Assembly (NCBI GenBank): GCA_025765615.1
Contig: JAIVFJ010000157.1
Coordinates: 62,001 to 126,000, forward strand
Length of the DNA: 64,000 nucleotides
Reading direction: 5' to 3'
Origin: Zopfochytrium polystomum
Lineage: Eukaryota > Chytridiomycota > Chytridiomycetes > Chytridiales > Chytridiaceae
The translations under genes and the position numbers were made by a program. The notes under the pieces were generated by a model. The model was not told the DNA's origin. It saw nothing but the letters and a program-made list of their open reading frames with translations, and made no database searches. Shown here piece by piece: positions 16,977 to 41,267 of this stretch. Position 1 is the stretch's first letter; every line of letters starts with the position of its first letter.

Positions 16977-19624
16977 TTAAGCAGATCCAAAGTTGATGCT
17001 GCTACAGTAATCGTCCGTCGTAATGTCGTACTTCTTTCCAAAGTTGTTTCCGTAGTTATCGTTGGCGTGGCACGTCAGGTAGTAGTCTGGCGCGCAGCCC
17101 TCGCCGTCGGCGAACTGCACCTTGCTGTACGGCAGCGTGATCTGGTACGCGGCGTTCCAAGTGAAAGCAAAGAAGGTGACGGTGAGCGCGATGGCAGTGC
17201 CGGAGTCCGCGGCGGCGGAGAGCACATAGGCGTACTTCTTCCACCATGCGTGGTTGAACTTTTTCACGTAGTAGTTGATGATGACACCGATGACGAGGGG
17301 CATGATGACGTCGGCGCGCGACGAGTTGACCTGGACGGGGAAGACGGCGATGATGGGGATGTTGACCAGGTGCCAGTATCCGTTCGGCTGGAACTTGTGC
17401 ATCACGTAGGGGAAGATGGGGGCGACGAGGCCGACGAGGAAGCCCCAGAGGGTGGCGACGTACGGGGAGCCCGGGCCGAAGAAGCGCGCGGGGCCAATGG
17501 CGCCCCAGATCGCGCCGGCGTTCAGGAACACGTTGAAGTTGCCGGCGGTCCAGCCCAGAGGCGGCTCGTCGGACTGCAGCTTCCAGATCTTGCCCGAGGT
17601 CGGATCGCTGGGGACGATGAACTCCTCCTTCTCGGAGCGGCCGAAGGACTCGTAGATGCCGAACGAGATGAAGACGTTGACGATCGAGGCGACAAGGGTG
17701 CCGACCAGCTGGACGGTGAACATGGCGCGAGGAGGGACCTTCAGGTAGTGACCGAGCTTGAGGTCGGCGACGAGAAGCAGGCCTTGGTACATGGACATGT
17801 ACGACAGCGTCTTGAACGACATGACGGCGGCGATGCGACCAGGCAGGATAAGACCGATCAAAAACTCGGACATGACGTTGAGGCCGATTTGCTGACCAGA
17901 GATGGCCTGGATAGTGCCGATGGGGATCATGGAGACAACGGCGAGTAGGAGGCCGAGGATGACGCCCCACCAGGGAAGGTCGAAACCGCCCCATTGGCAA
18001 ACAGCAATGCCGATGACAAGGTTCACGGCCAGGAGGATAATGTACCAAAGGTCGGGGACATCCGGGTACACGTCCATCATCTTGGCGTGAACGTCAGAGG
18101 TGTCGAGGTCGCGCATGGCGGTGCGGAAGCGGCGCCAGATGTCCGAGCCGTACCAAAGACCGACGTGGACAAGGGCAGACACGAAGACAATGAACGAAGC
18201 CAAGTACTCGATGGCGAAGTAGGCGGTAATGCGCATCGGCTGGAGCTTGTTGTACAGGTCCTCCTTCAGGCGCAGGCTCGACTTGTCGACCAAGGTTCGG
18301 GAAGCGACGTACGAGCCGTTGTTGTCGAACAAGTCGGGCGTGTTCAAGGTGAAGCCGAGGAAGTAGCGGCCGGTACCGTTGGGGCCTTGGTGTGGGTTGG
18401 TGCCCATGTCAAAGTCCTTGCCGAAGCCGTTGTTGACCCAAACAAGAGGGACGACGAGGTAGAGCATAAACCACATGCCCAAGAACTGGTTAAGCAGAGC
18501 CCAGAGAGGAGTGGTGATCGGCGCCTGGATGCTGATAATGGACCAGTCGAACGTGAACGACAGCAGACCGATGCCGCCCCTTGGCTGGGAAGATCCGAGA
18601 CCGCGCATGACCTTGGCCGCGTACGACGACGGGACGGCCGAGTTGTCCGACAGCTTGGGAGCAAAGTAGCAGAGCAGCGAGATGGAGGCCAGAACGGGCA
18701 TCAGGAATAGAGGGAACCATTCCCACACAAAGATGAGGGTGGCGGCGATCCAGAAAAAGGAGAATCGGGACAGCCTCAGCTTTCCGTCGGCACTCGGCGT
18801 GTTGGGCTCGTGGAGCGAGTTGAGCAGGGCGATGGTCGACAGGTTGCCTGGCCAGAGCATGGCGGCGGGGCGAACGAGGTAGCGGCGGCAGAGGCCAGCG
18901 AGACCGTAACCAAAGCACTGGGTCACGATGGCAAAGAAGACGCAAGCGACGGTGGTGAGGTCGGTCTGGTAGAGCTGGTACTTTTGGCCAACGATGTTGT
19001 ACAGAGCGTAGGCCGGGTTCGCACCGCAGGACGACGCAACGTAGATCAACGCGTGCTCTTTGTAGTTGAACTTGCCGGGGTTCAGAGTGAGGCCCATGAA
19101 CTTGCCCGTCGGAAGGACCCACGCCATGAAGAGACCAATCGGGTACGCGAGGAGGACACCGACGAAGGGGTTCAACTGGAAGTAGTTGGACCTGAACAGG
19201 AAGAGCGTGTTTACCGCCGCAAGCAGGACATTGAAAATGGCGCCCAGAACCACGACGCGGAAGGTCAGCGCCGGGAGGGTTGGGTCGTCCGTGCGGGGAA
19301 CAACCGCATCGACAATGTCGTAGATTTCGTCGAGGTACTCGCCGCTGAGATATGGACGAACAAGGAAATTAATACGGCGTTTCCAGCAAATTTCACCAGT
19401 TGAAGTCTCAGCGTTCCGTACCTCTCAGGGTCGGCTTCGCCAGACTTTTCGTGCTCGATTTTGCGCTCTACTTGAAGCTCGAGTTCGGCTTCAGAGATGA
19501 CGGCTTGGTCGTAGCCTGGTTTGGTTGGAATCAGGAAAGGAGCCGCGAGTTGTGATGAGATACAAAAAGCGGTCTCACTGCTGGGCTCACCGTCAGACTT
19601 TTGCACCATTTCCAGCTGCGTCAT
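16977..19624 (-). CDS. OPT-family oligopeptide/metal-chelate transporter
   Basis: Proton-coupled importer of small peptides or metal-peptide conjugates, expected in the plasma membrane. Exons: 19591-19624, 19422-19515, 16977-19344; 831 aa, phases consistent. Start chosen at ATG 19624 (MTQLEMVQ). The N-terminal ~60 residues are acidic and cytosolic. The rest is a polytopic membrane protein with 12 or more hydrophobic segments. Family-like stretches are NPFVGVLLAYPIGL, NPGKFNYKEHALIYV, SGQQIGLNVMSEFLIG and WGFLVGLVAPIFPY. Length fits fungal OPT proteins (about 750-900 aa). The 3' exon is an uninterrupted 2.4 kb frame, unusual beside the intron-rich neighbours. Substrate cannot be told from sequence. 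Confidence 0.93.
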
Positions 19625-20158: not shown

Positions 20159-22477
20159 CTAGTAACTCGCGACAAACACCGTCGCCGCCCACGTTCCACC
20201 GCAGACCTCCTCCTGCGCCGCCGCGCACGGCGCGCCGCACTCGGACTCCGCAATCTTTTGCGCGCTCGAGACAAACGCGTCCTGGTCCCCGCACCAGCAC
20301 TCGGACCCGTACTCAGTGCCCGACACCTCGTAGCCGCGGCCGAGGCAGTGCGCGGCGCACCCATGCTGGTTCAGCGGGCCCTCCGTAGCCGCGACGGGCA
20401 GGATGCGCGCCTCGGTGTCGCGGAAGCAGCCGGCATAGTAAAAATGGTAGTCCGTGGTGTTGACGCCGGCCGGCGGGTCGGCCGCCGCAGCCGACGCGGG
20501 CAGGGCGGGCGGGACGATCGTGACGTTGGCGACCGCGTCGGTCGCCGCCAGGTCGACGTACACCGACATGCGGAGGACGCCGCCAAACTTTTGGAACGGC
20601 ATCATCACGCCGCGCGCGTCGCACTCGTCCTCAGCCGCGCGCGTCAGCGCCGCGAACTCCGCCGCGCCGCCGCAGTAGCACTGGCCGGCGAGCTCGGCGG
20701 CGGCGAACGCAAAGCCTTGCTCGCGGCACGTGTACGTGCACCCTTCGAGCGCGTAGCCCCAGCCGACTTTTGTGCGGAAGGCGCGGGCCGCGGCAGAGTC
20801 CTTGTAGCAGCCGACGTAGGCGAAGCCGGCGAGCACAGGGTTGATGGGGCCATACGCGGGGCGTAAGGTGTCGGCCTGCCAGGCGGACAGCGCCCACTCG
20901 CCGCCGCAGGTTTGCGAGGGGTTGGTGCCGCAGGGCATGGAGCATGCCGCGGAGGTTTGCAGCAGGTCCATGCCGGAGCCGCACCAGCACTGGCCGCCGT
21001 ACTCGGTGCCGGCGACGGGGTAGCCCCAGCGGGTGCAGGCGGCGGTGCAGGCGGCGTTGTCGTACCCGTCGCCGACGTGGAAGGGGAGGCGGCGCTTGCC
21101 GCCGCCGTCGCCGCCGCCGTTCGCGTCGCCGTCGGTGAAGCACGCCAGGTAGTGGAAGCCGGCGGGCGGCGTCGGCCGCTGGGCGACAAAGACCGTGGCG
21201 GCCCACGTACCGCCGCACGACTGGTTGGTGGCGGCGTCGCACACGGTGCTGCACTCGGTCGAGGGGATGATCGCCTGCCGCGCGACGAGCGCAAAGGCGT
21301 CGGAGCCGCCGCACCAGCACTCGTTGCCGGCCTCGGTGCCGGACACGTCGTAGCCGAGGGAAAAGCAACCGGCCGCGCAAGAGTGCTGGGTCGCGGGGGC
21401 GGCCGTGTAGGAGACGGGCAGGAGTCGGGAGGGTGCGTCACGGAAGCAGCCTGCGTAGTAGTAGTCGAGGTCGTTGGTGAACACGCCGGCGGGAGGGCCG
21501 TCGATGGGGACGGGGGTGTTTGTGGGTTGGGCCGGCGGCACAACGGTGACGTTGAGGGTGGGGACGGTCGTGTCGGCGTAGACGGACAGGCGCAGCAGGC
21601 CGCCAAACTTTTGGAAGCTCATCATCACGCCGCGGGCGTCGCACTCGTCCTCGGGCGCGGGTGTCAGGGCGTCAAAGTCGCCTTCGGCGCCGCAAAAGCA
21701 GCGGCCGCCCAGCTCGCCAGCGGCGATGGGCAGGCCCCTCGCGCGGCACTCGCTCGTGCACCCTTCGAGGGCGTAGCCGAAGCCGATCTCGAGGTGGAAG
21801 GCGCGAGACGCGGCAGAGTCCTTGTAGCAGCCGAGGTAGCCAAAGCCGGCCAGCACCGGGTTGATGGGTCCGTAGAGGGGCGGGTTGATGTTCGATAGCC
21901 AGGCCGTCAACGCCGACGGGCCGCCGCAAGGCTGGGTGGGGTCGCTGGTGCAGGGGAGCGTGCACGACTCGGAGGTCGCCATGAGTGACATTCCCGAGCC
22001 GCAGAAGCACTGGCCGCCGGCCTCGGTTCCTGCGACGGGGTAGCCCCATCGGTAGCACAGGGCGGCGCACGCAGGGTTGTCGAGACCGTCGCCGGCGTGG
22101 AAGGGGAGCACGCGCGCCGGGGATTCGTCGTGGTCTTGGAAGCAGCCCATGTAGGAGAAGTCAGGGATGGTGGGCAGAGCAAGGGGAGTGCCGGCAGCGG
22201 GGGTCGGTGACGACGAGGGCGACTCTGGGGCGGGCGCAACAGTGGTGGTGGTTGCGTTGGTTGACGGGTCGTTGGTGGCAGTGGTGGTGGCGGCGGGAAG
22301 GGAGTCGGCAGATGATGACGCTGCCGACGACAAGGGGTCGCCGTCGGGAAAAGGGACGGCGGCCACGACCACGGCCGTCGTGAGCGAGACGACCACGAGG
22401 GCGACGGTGGTCGCCGGCCGCCTCGCCTTCGTCGTCGCCCTCGTCGTTGTCCTCGTCATGCTTGTCATCGTCTGCAA
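20159..22477 (-). CDS. Secreted/cell-wall protein with six WSC domains
   Basis: Single-exon 772-aa protein, probably extracellular and carbohydrate-binding; WSC domains occur in fungal wall sensors and secreted enzymes. Residues 1-40 form a signal peptide or anchor (basic start, then ALVVVSLTTAVVVAA). Residues about 45-105 are a Ser/Thr/Ala/Pro linker. Six Cys-rich WSC domains follow, the first three at about 109-195, 214-300 and 341-432. The second three repeat the first three in order. Domains 1 and 4 share HAGDG/HVGDG...WGYPVAGTE. Domains 2 and 5 share GCYKDSAA...RAF and DECDARGVMM. Domains 3 and 6 share YYAGCFRD and CGGTWAATVFVA. There is no catalytic domain and no clear C-terminal membrane segment. 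Ligand unknown. Confidence 0.9.
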   Translation of the reverse strand: MQTMTSMTRTTTRATTKARRPATTVALVVVSLTTAVVVAAVPFPDGDPLSSAASSSADSLPAATTTATNDPSTNATTTTVAPAPESPSSSPTPAAGTPLALPTIPDFSYMGCFQDHDESPARVLPFHAGDGLDNPACAALCYRWGYPVAGTEAGGQCFCGSGMSLMATSESCTLPCTSDPTQPCGGPSALTAWLSNINPPLYGPINPVLAGFGYLGCYKDSAASRAFHLEIGFGYALEGCTSECRARGLPIAAGELGGRCFCGAEGDFDALTPAPEDECDARGVMMSFQKFGGLLRLSVYADTTVPTLNVTVVPPAQPTNTPVPIDGPPAGVFTNDLDYYYAGCFRDAPSRLLPVSYTAAPATQHSCAAGCFSLGYDVSGTEAGNECWCGGSDAFALVARQAIIPSTECSTVCDAATNQSCGGTWAATVFVAQRPTPPAGFHYLACFTDGDANGGGDGGGKRRLPFHVGDGYDNAACTAACTRWGYPVAGTEYGGQCWCGSGMDLLQTSAACSMPCGTNPSQTCGGEWALSAWQADTLRPAYGPINPVLAGFAYVGCYKDSAAARAFRTKVGWGYALEGCTYTCREQGFAFAAAELAGQCYCGGAAEFAALTRAAEDECDARGVMMPFQKFGGVLRMSVYVDLAATDAVANVTIVPPALPASAAAADPPAGVNTTDYHFYYAGCFRDTEARILPVAATEGPLNQHGCAAHCLGRGYEVSGTEYGSECWCGDQDAFVSSAQKIAESECGAPCAAAQEEVCGGTWAATVFVASY

Positions 22478-35025: not shown

Positions 35026-38000
35026 TCAGTCGTTCTTCTTCGCCTGGATCCTGTCCGCCCAGACGTCGTCTGGGATATGGAACAGGTACACGGCGAGGAT
35101 CATGACGAGCACGCAGGCGGCGCAGCCAAAGATGGTGCCCCAGAATGCGGCGGTGGGGCCGGAGGGCGGCAGGCCGGGCGAGAAGATGTAGCCGGACAGG
35201 TCGGAGCCGAGGTTGCCCGCGGCGTTGCCGCGCGTCGGGACGCCCGCCGCGGCGCAGGTCTGGTTGTACGCGGCGTCCATCAAGTCGTCTGCCCCCGGGA
35301 TTTCGTCGGGGTTGACAATGAGGGTAGCCGCGAAGCCGTAGTCGCGCAAAAAGGTGTTTGTCGAGTGGAGAAGCCACACGCCCGCGTTCTCGTTGCGGAA
35401 TCGGATCACGGCGTACGACGCCGGTGGGATCTGGACCGTGTCGCGGGTAGGGTATCCCGAGGCCGTGTCGTCGCCGCCGGCGCCGCCGTCGTCATCATCG
35501 TCGGCCTTGCGTTGCGTGCCTTCGCGGCGTTTGCTGTCGTCGCGGTTGTCGTCGGGCAGCGCGTCAAAGTTCTTGCTCGGATCGAACGGCAAGTTGTCGA
35601 CGTCGACGATCTGGAACGAGTGGCCGTGCAGGTGGAAGGAGTGCGCGTTGGTGATGTCTTGGTTGAGGATAACGATTTCCGTCACCCCGTCGTCGATCAC
35701 GTACGGGATCGTGTCGACGCCGTACACGGTCGGGTCGCTCTTCAGGGTGTCGCCGATGGTCAATGCGGTGATCAGGGAGGGAACTTTGGGCTGGATGTAT
35801 GCGGTGTTGTTGAACGTCCCGCGGGCCGATCCGTCGGCCATCATCTGCACCGCGGCGTCCAGGACGATGCGGCGCGTCGGCTTCAGGACCTCGGTTTTCT
35901 TTGCCGGGACGAAGGTTCGCAGCATACTGTCATCGTAGAGGATGAAGGCGTCGCTGCTTTCGGTTGTGTCGATCGCATCGCCGTACGGGTTGTCGGGACC
36001 GTACGATACAGTGAGGAATGTGCCTAGCAAGTCCGAGAACGGGACGGTTAAAACATTTCCAAAACAAAACAATAAAAAAAAGCAGGCGGTCGCACTCACT
36101 CAATGCTCCAACCGGCGCCTCGGTTCCATCAGCGTCCGCGTTGCCGACCTGCTGCGTGACATGCATCATGTAGTTGATGATGGTTGTGTTCTGGTCGTGC
36201 ATGCCTTCCACCAACACACCGAACCGCTGACCGGGCGCAATCGTCAAAGCTGTCACCTCGTACTCCTCAACGGGGAAGCCGTCGACCTCGACGATGGTCA
36301 TGTTGTGCGAGTCGATGGCCACAAACATGGACAGTTGCGAGGCAAAGGAGATGAGGCGGAGCATGTACTTCTCGCCTGAGTTGAAATGCACTGAAGCGTT
36401 GGCGACTTCGTTAACGATGATTGCTTCGGGCTTGGGGAGAACACCCAGAGGGTTCAGAGTGCTTGAGAACGTGCCAAAGAGGGAGCTGTACTCCTCGTCG
36501 TACCATTCTGTAAAACAAGAGAAGAATTCAGCGGGGGTCAGTGGGAACAGTTCAAGGATCACGTACCAGAGAGAGTGACAACGTAGTCGTCCCACTTTGG
36601 ATCCGAGGTGCTGCGCACAATCAAAGGAACACGGAGACCGTCAACAGATTGTCCCTGCACAAAGCGGGAATCAGTCAAGCAATCAAACTTTATCCATACG
36701 AAGGTTATATATATTTACCGCGTAGCTTCCCTCAATGTAGAAGGTCCCAGTCTGGTTCAGCAGAACAGTGTAGGTGTAGTTCGACTTGGCGGGAATGGGG
36801 CTGGGAGTTTGTCAGTCCAGCTTGTTCAAGATGGAAGTGCAATCAACTGACCATTGGTTGACCATCGGGTAGCCATCGTATTGAGGTGCGCCGGTTTGGT
36901 GGATTCCAAAGAAATGCAGAGCGGTGGGAACATCCAACTTGTTGCTCTGGAGCCAGGAGTCAGCGAAGCGAGAGAAAAAAGAAAAAAAAAGAAAAAAGAA
37001 AGAAAAAAAGAAAACATCCCCCACAGCCCTTCCGAGGTTAAAAACTCCAAATTTTGTTGTTCAGCAGTATCTTACGTACCAAATTGATAGTCAGCGTGTC
37101 GCCAGTGTTGGCGTAAATGGCCTCAGGGGGCCAGACACCGTTGACGCCAATCATGCGGCGAGCACCGAGGTCTTTAAGGTTGACGTTCACGTAGCCGACC
37201 TCCCAGTCGAGCTCGACGACGTTGGTGGGGCAGTCTTGACCGACAAGGTCGGTCAGCTTGTTGAACGCATGGGTGACGTTTGAAGTGGACGACCCGACGA
37301 CAATGTCAAAGGTGGCTTGGTACTGCGTCCACGCGTGGGTGGAGAGCTGGGCGGAGAAGAGAACGTAGCCGTCGGCGGTTGCGTTCTGGTTCGCCATCTT
37401 CTTCATGGGGATGGTGGTCTCAAAGAGATCCGCTCCAGGGACGTACCAGTCGGGGTCACGCACTCCGTAGGTGTAGACCAGGTTGACTGGGCTGGAGGCA
37501 AGGTCTTGCTGAACCTGTGAAATGACTCGGGGGTTAAAATTTCAAATTCGCTCTCTGCCCTTGTAAGTGTCCCTACCGCGGCAACGATGGTGGCGGTCCA
37601 GTTGAGCTTGTCCTGAGGTGAGACGCAGCTCAAGCTGCGGGCGTGGAAGACACGAGGCTCGATTGGGAAGAAGGCGCCATTGTTGTCAAACGTAGCAATG
37701 GTGCCGTTTGAGAATGCGACCGAGACAGAGTACTGTGACACTGTCTTGTTTGCGGCACTATGAGAGAAAGAGAAGAACTATCAAGGAGGAGGGGGTTCGT
37801 TAGGGGGTTAGGAGTTGTCATTTGAACAAAAATTTGAGCAAAAACGCAACGGCTACGCCCACCTACCTGGAAAGTCTCCTTGGGGTAACCGCCTGTGGCA
37901 ACTGCGCCTTTCACGGCCGACGCACGAATCTTGCTACCGTCGTCCTTTGCATTGAGAACGACAGACGTTACATTGGAAAGTGTGGTGCGGACCCTGACTT

Positions 38001-38955
38001 CGCCGGTGAACGTCAGGACGTTATTGTCGCCAATGTCGTAACGGGCGCCGTGGGGCTTGACGTCGTAGGGCACCAGCACGTCGGAGAGGACGGATTTCTT
38101 GGGCACGGTCTCCATGATCTTTTGCAACGAGACGACGCAGGCGTCAAAGTACTTCTCCTGGCTGTTGAGCTTGGAGATGGTCGCGTTGCCGTCCGAGCTG
38201 AAGATGCGCAGATCGACGTTCGTTGCGGCAGGGCCGACAATGAGAGGGTCTTGGACGGTGCCGTCGAGGTACTCCTTGACAATGTTGAAGTCGTACACAA
38301 GGTTGGTCGAGTCGAACATGACCTTGTTGTCCTCCTCCGAGACGATGGCCGGATCTTCATCGTGTTCCACTCCGCCCAGCGTATGGGCGCACGCGATGAG
38401 GGTGATGAACTCGGACTGGTTGAATCCCATCAGCGAAAAGTTTCCAATGAGCTGCGGCAGGGTATCGGTGGTGTGGGACGGCCGGAAGGCGTCGGGAGGG
38501 TTTCCTTCCGTTGCGTCGATTCTACCCAGACGCAGCGGGATGGAGGGGCCATCGCACAGCGCGACGGCGGCGACAATGTGGGCGACCTCCGCGTCCGAGA
38601 TGGAGAGGCGGGAGTTGTGGTAGTTGGTTAGGTGGAAGTAGACCTCGTTGAAGGACAGGACGTTTTCGGTGTAGTTGAGCTCGTAGCGCAGAGAGGCGTC
38701 GATGCCCCTGACGCCTTCCTTGGCCAAGTGGCCCGCGACGTCGTGAAATGCCATGCGTAGGGTGACGGCGTTGAAGTCTGAGCAAGGGACAAGCGGCTCC
38801 GTGAAGCGCGAGGCGGCGTAGCCATTGTCTTGGTAGACGACCCACTCGAGCTCGTCCCAGCGCGGGGACGGCCAGGTCGGGACGGTGGCGGCCGCGCTGT
38901 TGGCGGCGGCTATCGCTATGGCGCCAGTGACCACGGCGGCTTGCAGCAGCACCAT
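35026..38955 (-). CDS. Heme peroxidase fused to Fet3-like multicopper-oxidase fold, membrane-anchored
   Basis: Exons: 37867-38955, 37577-37744, 37080-37514, 36852-36946, 36719-36800, 36567-36654, 36100-36507, 35026-36023; 1120 aa, every junction in phase. Signal peptide at residues 1-24. A peroxidase domain of hybrid-B type follows: distal Arg67/His71 in LRMAFHD, GIDASL, proximal His191 in IACAHTLGG, RIFSSDGN. Then comes its beta-rich extension, to about residue 515. From about residue 517 a Fet3-like fold begins (VELDWEVGYVN, RRMIGVNGVWPP). Copper motifs are degenerate: HFFG for HxHG, FYIEGS for WYHSH, and HSTNTFL for HCHxxWH, so the type-1 Cys is lost. Only HSFHLHGHSF is kept. SEWYDE retains the Glu aligned with the Fet3p iron ligand Glu185. 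A TM helix lies at about 1079-1103 with a short cytosolic tail (DDVWADRIQAKKND). It is divergent from FTR1. Probable role in iron uptake at the cell surface (inference). Confidence 0.85.
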
Positions 38956-39629
38956 GAGCGGGAGACTGGAGCAGAGACAGGGGCAGAGACAGAAAGAAAC
39001 GCAAACGGGAGAGTGGAGAGAGAGAGAGACAAGCTTCCAGCGCTTTTGGTTTTTTTTTTTTTGGTCTGCAAGAGAGCGCCACACTTGCCCGAAATAGCCC
39101 TTTCATACTATTACTGTATTGTCTGTCGAAATTTGTCTTCTTGTCGCTCGGTCTGGGGCTAGTCGGCCTTCGACGTCTCCGAGGCCAGCATGAAAATTCG
39201 CTGTCGACGTTCTTCGGACGAAACAAAGGAAGGAAAAAATGGACGAATGAGCCTTTTTTGCGCAATGTTGCCATCAGCCGACAAGCGAATCCATGACTGG
39301 AAGGATTTTTTCCGCCGGCCATCAGACAGTTGTGGCGCTGAAAGCTTGGGCAAAAATTCGGCCAAAGATTGGCCGCAAGCTGTTCTTTGTCTTCTCTGTT
39401 GCCGTGTCTGTCCGATAGGTGCCTGTCTGTCTCTGTCTCTGTTCCTACCTCTAAGGACAGAGAAACAAAAGAGGGAAAGAGACAGATACATAGAGAGACA
39501 GAGGGTCAGAGAGAGAGACAAGAAAACGAACAAGGCCAATACCGGAACGCGGGACGGAACGAAGTCTTCTCTTCGCTTCTTCGCAACCGCCACAGCAGCA
39601 CACACTCGGCCTGAGCAACCAGACCAGAC
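38956..39629. promoter_or_regulatory. Shared divergent promoter of the peroxidase-Fet3-like gene and FTR1
   Basis: 674 bases separate the two start codons, so both genes are probably driven from here. Candidate sites seen: CCAAT at 39536-39540, its inverse ATTGG at 39368-39372, and one HGATAR-type site CGATAG at 39413-39418. CCAAT-binding HapX and GATA factors control iron genes in other fungi. Sites this short occur by chance, so this is weak evidence. Confidence 0.4.
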
Positions 39630-41267
39630 ATGTTCGGCTTCTCAGTACCCATCTTCTTCATCACGATGCGTGAGGTACGCACGGGCGATCGCCCACAACA
39701 CCCACTCGTCCCTTAGCATTGATCTTGGTCCCTTTTGTTTCTCGTTAATCGCATGTGCCAACCAAGGCCCTAGAGGCCGCCGTGGTCGTCTCAGTGCTCG
39801 CCTCGTTTGTGCACCAGTCCTTCCCTCGAGGCACCTACCTGTACAAGCGCATGTTCGGGCTGATCCTTTCAGGCACACTCCTGGCCGTCGCAATCTCCGT
39901 TGTAATCGGCGCCGCGTTCCTCGTCGTCTGGTTCAAGTACGCGACGAACCTATGGTAGGAGGGGATCCCATTTTGCCTTCTTCGTGCGATTTCGTTTTTC
40001 TCAAACACATGCACTTCCAGGAAGAGCGCCGAGGAGCTCTGGGAAGGCATCGAGGGCCTCGTCGCCGGCGTCATGCTGACGGTCCTCGCCTTCGGCTTCC
40101 TGCAGTCCGAGGAGTTGACCGAAAAGTGGCACAAGAAGCTCCGTCGCCAACTGGTCGACCAGATCGCACCCAGCGAGCGGCCGCTCGCCGACGACGGCCC
40201 CGACATGGTCGTCGAAGAGGACGATCGCAACGACACCGACTCGATCGCGTCCAAGCAGTCCCTGGAGGACAAGATCTTCAACGCCGTGTTCAACTTCTTC
40301 AAGAAGCGGTCGGCTGCACCCCGCGGCGACGAGACTACCGCCGTTGGCAAGAAGAACGAGGCTGACGGCGCTGTGCTTTCGACGTCCAACACGGCCGGGT
40401 ACACGCTGTTTATTCTTCCGTTCATCACTGTGCTTCGGGAGGGCCTCGAGTGTGTCGTCTTCATTGGCGGGGTAAGGAACAAAAAAATGGCCATCAGGTC
40501 GGTTGAGCCGCAGCCTTTTCTGACCGCTTCGCTCCATTGAAACACACCTTTAGATTGGCATCACCAGCGACCCTGGTACCATCCCCCTGGCAGCTGTTAT
40601 CGGGTTGGGCTGCGGCGCGCTTCTCGGCTACCTGATTTACCGCCTCGGCAACTCGCTAAAAGCCCGCGCCTTTTTCCTCGTCTCCACCATCTTCATCCTC
40701 GTCCTGGCCGTCGGCCTCACGACGCGGTCCGTCGGCAAAATTGAAAACTACCGCTTCAAGCAGCGCATCGGCACCAACCTCGACCTGACCGAGTCGCCCG
40801 TGCGCGACGTCAACTCCACCATCTGGTACCTCAACTGCTGCAACCCGGAGGAGGAGGTCTCCAACAACTACGGCTGGCAGGTGTTTTCCGCCATCTTTGG
40901 TTGGAACAACCAGGGCACATACTTGACCGTGTTTTTGTACGCGGGTTACTGCATCGTCGTCGCGGGGATTCTCGTCGGGTACAAGCTATTCCGCGTCCGC
41001 CGCGTGCTCGCCAAGCGAGAGCGCCGCGCTATGCGCGCTGCCGCGGCCAAGCTGGAGATTGCGGCCGCCGCGGGAGAGACGGCGGGCGTTCCCGACGAGA
41101 AGACTGAAAAGAGCGAGCTGCCGCGCGCCGCCGGCGACGCCGAGACGGACTCTGCTGAGGCCAGCGCGAGCGGCAGCGCAACCGCCACTGCTGCCGCGGA
41201 CGCCGCCGCGGCCGCGGCTCCCGCCGTCACGACCGAGGGCGAGGAGTTCCTCAGCATCAGCAAGTAA
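39630..41267 (+). CDS. FTR1: High-affinity iron permease FTR1
   Basis: Plasma-membrane ferric-iron permease of the reductive uptake pathway, normally working with a Fet3-type ferroxidase. Exons: 39630-39674, 39767-39954, 40021-40471, 40554-41267; 465 aa, all phases consistent. Seven hydrophobic segments. The first iron-binding motif is MRE/ALEAA (R-E-x-L-E), split by intron 1 right after the Glu. The second is a perfect REGLE in ITVLREGLECVVFIGG. Charged loop insertions (acidic stretch VVEEDDRND) and an extended Ala/Glu-rich cytosolic tail make it longer than yeast Ftr1 (about 400 aa). The only Fet3-like gene in the window is its divergent neighbour, which appears copper-dead. Confidence 0.95.

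Follow-up and report, generated by a model that had tools for sequence, protein, structure and literature searches.

A heme peroxidase fused to a Fet3-like protein with decayed copper sites, encoded beside an FTR1 iron permease in a chytrid fungus

The fusion gene and its conservation

A single gene encoding a heme peroxidase joined to a Fet3-like triple cupredoxin lies in the 80-Mb genome of Zopfochytrium polystomum, within a 64,000-nt stretch of contig JAIVFJ010000157.1 (C157:62001-126000; hereafter the window, whose numbering is used below). The gene runs from 38955 to 35026 on the minus strand, head-to-head with an iron permease gene, FTR1. Its eight exons are separated by GT-AG introns with consistent phases, as a sequence-only reading of this DNA had proposed, and form a single open frame of 3396 nt; the product has 1131 aa rather than the 1120 aa of that reading. 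In order, it comprises a predicted signal peptide, a hybrid-B heme peroxidase, a beta extension, the Fet3-like triple cupredoxin and a C-terminal membrane helix. The signal peptide and membrane helix are predicted from hydrophobic stretches within residues 1-25 and 1089-1122, and the helix is also present in a structure model of part of the paralog on contig C8. Pfam places the peroxidase family PF00141 at residues 60-252 with 63.6 bits (cut-off 27), and Cu-oxidase_3, Cu-oxidase and Cu-oxidase_2 match with 91.1, 102.1 and 78.5 bits.

Exon 1 (37867..38955, on the minus strand like the others) encodes the predicted signal peptide, the peroxidase domain with R67, H71, H191, E197 and D248, and the beginning of the beta extension, which contains the HyBpox motif LTFTGEVRVRTT. 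Exon 2 (37577..37777) continues the beta extension and has the region of a second HyBpox motif (NWTATIVAA) at its end; its start, FFSFSHSAANK, is supported by the C8 paralog, where it is identical. In both paralogs a pair of AG acceptors spaced by 20 nt lies before and in exon 2 (window 37778/37758; L026 5672), and only the upstream one preserves the frame; acceptor 37758 was rejected because it breaks the frame, and 37778 was used in the model. Exon 3 (37080..37514) is 435 nt long, open throughout, and leads from the last part of the beta extension into the first cupredoxin domain, so that the switch between the two halves does fall inside one uninterrupted exon. The first cupredoxin domain continues through exon 4 (36852..36946), where HFHG has become HFFG with loss of the type 3 (T3) copper ligand H83, exon 5 (36719..36800), where WYHSH has become YIEGS with loss of T3 H126 and H128, and exon 6 (36567..36654), which holds its end part. 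Exon 7 (36100..36507) encodes the second cupredoxin domain, with Leu in place of the Fe-site residue E185, and exon 8 (35026..36023) encodes the third, in which HSFHLHGH is kept and HCHIEWH is replaced by HSTNTFL, together with the C-terminal hydrophobic helix.

The diverged paralog on C8 has the same domain order; its exons 2 to 7 are equal in length to those of the window gene, and its last exon contains two additional introns. The ratio of nonsynonymous to synonymous substitution rates (dN/dS) between the two genes, taken in eight segments that cover all but residues 801-875, is 0.062 for the peroxidase, 0.092 for the beta part, 0.135 for the junction, 0.070, 0.082 and 0.054 for the cupredoxin domains and 0.093 for the stalk and anchor; dS in these seven segments is 1.06 to 2.47 and is partly saturated. 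Purifying selection acts on the two halves and across the junction, and the signal peptide (24 codons; dN/dS 0.889) is unconstrained. A near-copy on contig C41, with 98.3% identical DNA over 8.8 kb, is probably the other haplotype. In this copy (L025, C41:295000-304900) the reading frame of the peroxidase is broken near fusion residue 138, where tblastn gave two segments in different frames; either decay of the allele or an assembly error may account for it.

Searches for homologous proteins, in each of which only about 8000 candidates were scored, found the same domain order in five other chytrid genera (E from 0 to 6.3e-99), which answers a search that the sequence-only reading had recommended. 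The closest, from Entophlyctis luteolus, is 67% identical over 98%; the others are from Physocladia obscura, Irineochytrium annulatum, Blyttiomyces and Cladochytrium tenue. All five carry PF00141 and at least two Cu-oxidase domains, and four of the five, all except that of Entophlyctis, are labelled partial. The architecture therefore occurs in six chytrid genera. The comparisons below use seven fusion rows (window, C8 and these five; the C41 near-copy and the database protein P0007 were left out). In a tree of 33 rows, made up of the seven fusions, 23 of 55 non-fused relatives and three further rows from the same genome, the fusions are separated as a group from all other rows by a branch with an SH-like approximate likelihood-ratio (SH-aLRT) support of 100. 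The tree, a short search without bootstrap whose rows were relatives found by similarity and contained no other peroxidase family, is compatible with a single origin of the fusions.

That a gene model had merged a neighbouring peroxidase gene with a Fet3-like gene is barely credible. The two public Zopfochytrium entries, P0002, which is identical to the matching part of the C8 translation, and P0007, consist of the cupredoxin part with no peroxidase half and start inside exon 3 or later, which would fit such a merger. By visual inspection neither begins with a signal peptide, yet the protein has a membrane helix at its end; furthermore the exon is open across the junction, exons 2 to 7 are length-matched in the C8 paralog, the junction is constrained, and the domain order recurs in the five other genera. 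The expectation that a false join was unlikely is borne out by these observations.

Heme and copper sites of the two halves

The catalytic residues of the peroxidase half, the distal Arg and His (R67, H71), the proximal His (H191) and the proximal Asp (D248), are intact in all seven fusions. Six residues past H191 lies E197 (codon 38365..38367, minus strand), a position occupied by Glu in 7/7 fusions. Among the 54 non-fused relatives with a residue there, none is acidic: His occurs in 32, Arg in 14, Lys in 3, Gln in 3, Asn in 1 and a different residue in the last; these relatives are the 55 top matches of one search rather than a random sample, with one gapped at this column. The three hybrid-B type peroxidases from the same genome all have His here. 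The equivalent position is described as the Mn-site Asp in IoMnP1 (His172/Asp178; PMC10258189), and a profile search of the PDB at a threshold of 0.001, which gave no match at 1e-20, aligned E197 with an Asp of versatile peroxidase (VP) without a gap after the proximal His. The fusions thus share with manganese peroxidase (MnP) and VP the acidic residue at proximal His +6; they differ in lacking the two conserved distal-side Glu residues, in belonging to a different subfamily and in being encoded, at this locus, next to an iron permease.

The peroxidase half and its beta extension resemble HyBpox proteins, which are among the nearest non-fused relatives, in both catalytic residues and extension. 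The motif reported after the HyBpox peroxidase domain, [LIV]-S-F-x-G-x-[IV]-R-[VI]-R-T-T (PMC8945051), is found in the window as LTFTGEVRVRTT (S to T); a relaxed pattern matches six of the seven fusions, P0004 being the exception, and the short form F.G..R[VI]R[TS] occurs in 20 of the 55 non-fused relatives. To a second motif, [LMV]-T-[IV]-[TS]-A-A-V-R-A-D-R-I, from which chytrid sequences are said to differ (PMC8945051), the window sequence NWTATIVAAVQQD bears only a partial resemblance. Pfam gave no match to a WSC domain or carbohydrate-binding module in the fusion product. What sets the fusion apart from HyBpox is the downstream pseudo-Fet3 with its membrane helix, and Glu at proximal His +6 instead of mostly His or Arg. 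WSC domains do occur in several of the non-fused peroxidase relatives, and elsewhere in the window an open frame of 772 aa (20162-22477, minus strand) has six WSC-domain matches.

The three-cupredoxin fold is nearest to that of Fet3p, the structure model used being that of P0002, the annotated part of the C8 paralog. Alignment to Fet3, which has ten His and one Cys as copper ligands, shows that the window fusion keeps five of the eleven and has lost six. Five of eleven are also kept in C8, 4/11 in Physocladia and 3/11 in Irineochytrium; among the ligands covered, Entophlyctis keeps 3/8, Cladochytrium 4/7 and Blyttiomyces 2/4. The T3 histidines H126 and H128 and the ferroxidase glutamate E185 are lost in all seven fusions. 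At the other Fe-site acids, the D283 column holds Asp in 6/6 covered fusions, in a region where the alignment is loose, and D409 is kept in three of six. Six matches from outside the genome are multicopper oxidases with no peroxidase part (P0006, P0009-P0013); P0009, P0010 and P0011 were compared together with the multicopper oxidase on contig C27 of the same genome, and all four have all eleven ligands. E185 is kept in three of these four; P0010 lacks it, and its absence by itself does not mark out a fusion. These data suggest that the copper chemistry of the Fet3 half is gone. The sequence-only reading had assigned a Fet3-like ferroxidase fold, which is right as regards the fold. The fusion accordingly differs from Fet3p of the Saccharomyces cerevisiae Fet3/Ftr1 system (PDB 1ZPU) by the loss of most copper ligands and of E185 and by its added N-terminal heme peroxidase. 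The Entophlyctis protein (P0001) is named 'ferroxidase fet3' despite having lost most of its covered copper ligands.

An AlphaFold model of a full-length fusion, the Physocladia protein P0003, built on an alignment (A1) that comprised 60 of 68 retrieved proteins, is of good quality in the peroxidase and beta parts and of poor quality in the cupredoxin part; in Foldseek it retrieved 1ZPU first, but with a template modelling score of 0.36 and a root-mean-square deviation of 15.8. The second model, of P0002, was based on 13 rows and spans the cupredoxin part.

The FTR1 neighbour and related loci

On the opposite strand, 674 bp from start to start (intergenic region 38956..39629), lies the gene for a 465-aa FTR1 iron permease (39630..41267, plus strand; exons 39630-39674, 39767-39954, 40021-40471 and 40554-41267). 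It matches PF03239 with 174.1 bits and contains the motifs REALE and REGLE. A DXXE motif, DLTE, is found at residue 305, near the C-terminal helices, with DLSE as its counterpart at C8; neither C27 nor C182 has a DXXE there in its FTR1 segment. Head-to-head pairs of fusion and FTR1 are present in the window, in the C41 near-copy and on C8, where both genes have been retained at a dS of about 1 or more. As C8 and C157 are paralogous, this is one arrangement kept twice and not two independent ones. Since a head-to-head arrangement of Fet3 and Ftr1 is reported to be common in fungi (PMC11836134), the fusion occupies the usual place of Fet3 beside FTR1, and FTR1 is likely to be its partner. GATA-type sites are few and irregular in the start-to-start regions (one on C157, none on C41, two on C8 and two on C27).

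Several further observations concern iron genes elsewhere. The Fet3 model of the canonical Fet3-FTR1 pair on C27 has all 11 copper ligands and a start with no obvious signal peptide, and its first exon may be missing. Two other FTR1-like genes, L044 (C182:98500-108400) and L043 (C326:17500-27400), have no multicopper oxidase match within 9.9 kb each. The window also contains a frame for an oligopeptide transporter (OPT) (16980-19424, minus strand; 445 bits). Some OPT proteins transport metal chelates.

Proposed function and its alternatives

We favor, with somewhat better than even confidence, a reading in which this single protein, predicted to reside at the cell surface, oxidizes Fe2+ at the expense of H2O2 and passes the resulting Fe3+ to Ftr1. 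Peroxidases use one-electron donors. H2O2 would generate Compound I at the heme, Fe2+ would bind at the heme edge through a propionate and E197, and Compounds I and II would each oxidize it by one electron (2 Fe2+ + H2O2 + 2H+ -> 2 Fe3+ + 2 H2O). The dead Fet3 part may have been retained as a scaffold on which Ftr1 docks and takes over Fe3+. With the partner not expected to use copper, the heme is the sole other redox centre predicted in the fusion. In yeast, uptake is described as requiring iron oxidation by the partner, with Fe3+ handed directly to Ftr1, whose loop DXXE works with E185 of Fet3 (PMC11817551). An alternative, copper-independent iron oxidase had been suggested from the sequence-only reading; the decayed copper sites, intact heme residues, fusion-specific Glu and FTR1 neighbour all point that way, and the oxidation itself is deduced from them.

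A number of points weigh against this interpretation. The yeast residue E185 is considered to deliver Fe3+ to Ftr1 (PMC11817551), and its loss from the fusions means that the hand-over would need another route. RiFTR1 of Rhizophagus is reported to be functional in yeast with no ferroxidase (PMC11836134), which leaves room for the peroxidase to act solely as a guard of the permease. Of the three Mn ligands of MnP, a single one is clearly matched: distal His -11 is Asp in four of seven fusions and -7 is Val or Leu in all seven, where MnP has Glu. Eight fusion-specific columns passed the filter (R90, D164, E197, D199, K211, R449, W492 and K516), and E197 was selected from among them. The FTR1 neighbourhood of the fusions has been observed in this genome only, which also contains the canonical Fet3-FTR1 pair (L027, C27:150500-160400), making the fusion an addition and not a replacement. 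The architecture and the loss of ligands are observed, and iron oxidation and the complex with Ftr1 are predictions from the sequence.

The combination of an intact peroxidase site with decayed copper sites would fit equally well a protein that clears H2O2 at the mouth of Ftr1 and so prevents Fenton chemistry, with the dead Fet3 as a tether and iron oxidized elsewhere or not at all. We consider such a guard unlikely, since a pure scavenger needs no heme-edge Glu that is present in 7/7 fusions and 0/54 relatives; a peroxidase also needs a reductant, which beside Ftr1 would most simply be Fe2+. The same Glu, as the H+6 acid that is a Mn ligand in MnP and VP, might instead form a Mn2+ site, so that Mn3+ or radicals act on the cell wall or another substrate, such as phenols, and the FTR1 neighbourhood was inherited with the captured Fet3. 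Hybrid-B peroxidases with carbohydrate-binding domains are known and are discussed in terms of reactive-oxygen defence (PMC5571214, PMC8945051), but the fusions do not conserve the remaining two MnP ligands, the protein has a membrane helix at its C-terminus, and an iron permease is paired with it at both paralogous loci; this makes a manganese or phenol peroxidase distinctly improbable. Release or capture of iron from heme or ferric complexes by the peroxidase part, for delivery to FTR1, would recall the deferrochelatase activity claimed for Escherichia coli EfeB (PMC8197335). The review that reports this claim describes it as controversial, it concerns another peroxidase family, and nothing in the fusion data indicates heme as a substrate, leaving this possibility very improbable.

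Peroxide-driven iron oxidation beside an Ftr1-type permease would have a bacterial counterpart. EfeB, a DyP peroxidase, is reported to oxidize Fe2+ beside the Ftr1-type EfeU (PMC8197335, PMC9174327), and the EfeUOB and FepABC systems, as described there, likewise bring together such a permease, a heme peroxidase and a partner that contains a cupredoxin. The families differ: EfeB is of the DyP type and EfeO is a cupredoxin-M75 protein, and Pfam matched neither DyP nor M75 in the fusion product, whose peroxidase part matches PF00141 (neighbours beyond the examined open reading frames were not searched for M75). The likeness to EfeB would therefore be convergence, and the resemblance to EfeUOB is functional and not by descent. 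There is about an even chance that the fusion arose by attachment of a heme peroxidase to Fet3, that this peroxidase acquired the heme-edge metal site with E197 and became the oxidant of iron at the expense of H2O2, and that the copper centres then decayed, leaving Fet3 as the Ftr1 dock only; the outcome would be a single-chain eukaryotic counterpart of EfeUOB that breaks the classical copper dependence of high-affinity iron uptake in fungi.

The sequence-only reading knew of no described peroxidase-Fet3 fusion, and the literature agrees: titles and abstract openings among the open-access papers listed on HyBpox, Fet3/Ftr1, multicopper oxidase-peroxidase and EfeB topics contain no such description, and the words 'cupredoxin' and 'multicopper' are both absent from the main text of the HyBpox papers examined. 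Unremarked copies were already in the databases, among them the Entophlyctis 'ferroxidase fet3'; such labels, or 'Cupredoxin', can hide proteins that lack the copper sites they imply. Fungal high-affinity reductive iron uptake is presented as the classic example of iron metabolism that relies on copper, via Fet3 (PMC7676907). If our interpretation is correct, a conserved gene that joins a dead copper enzyme to a peroxidase beside Ftr1 would be a way round this dependence and a eukaryotic parallel to EfeUOB, and it raises the sharp question of whether a peroxidase can drive Ftr1. Chytrids are likely to be able to oxidize iron for uptake with H2O2 instead of copper and O2, which would explain how early-diverging fungi might gain iron under copper shortage or where peroxide is abundant.

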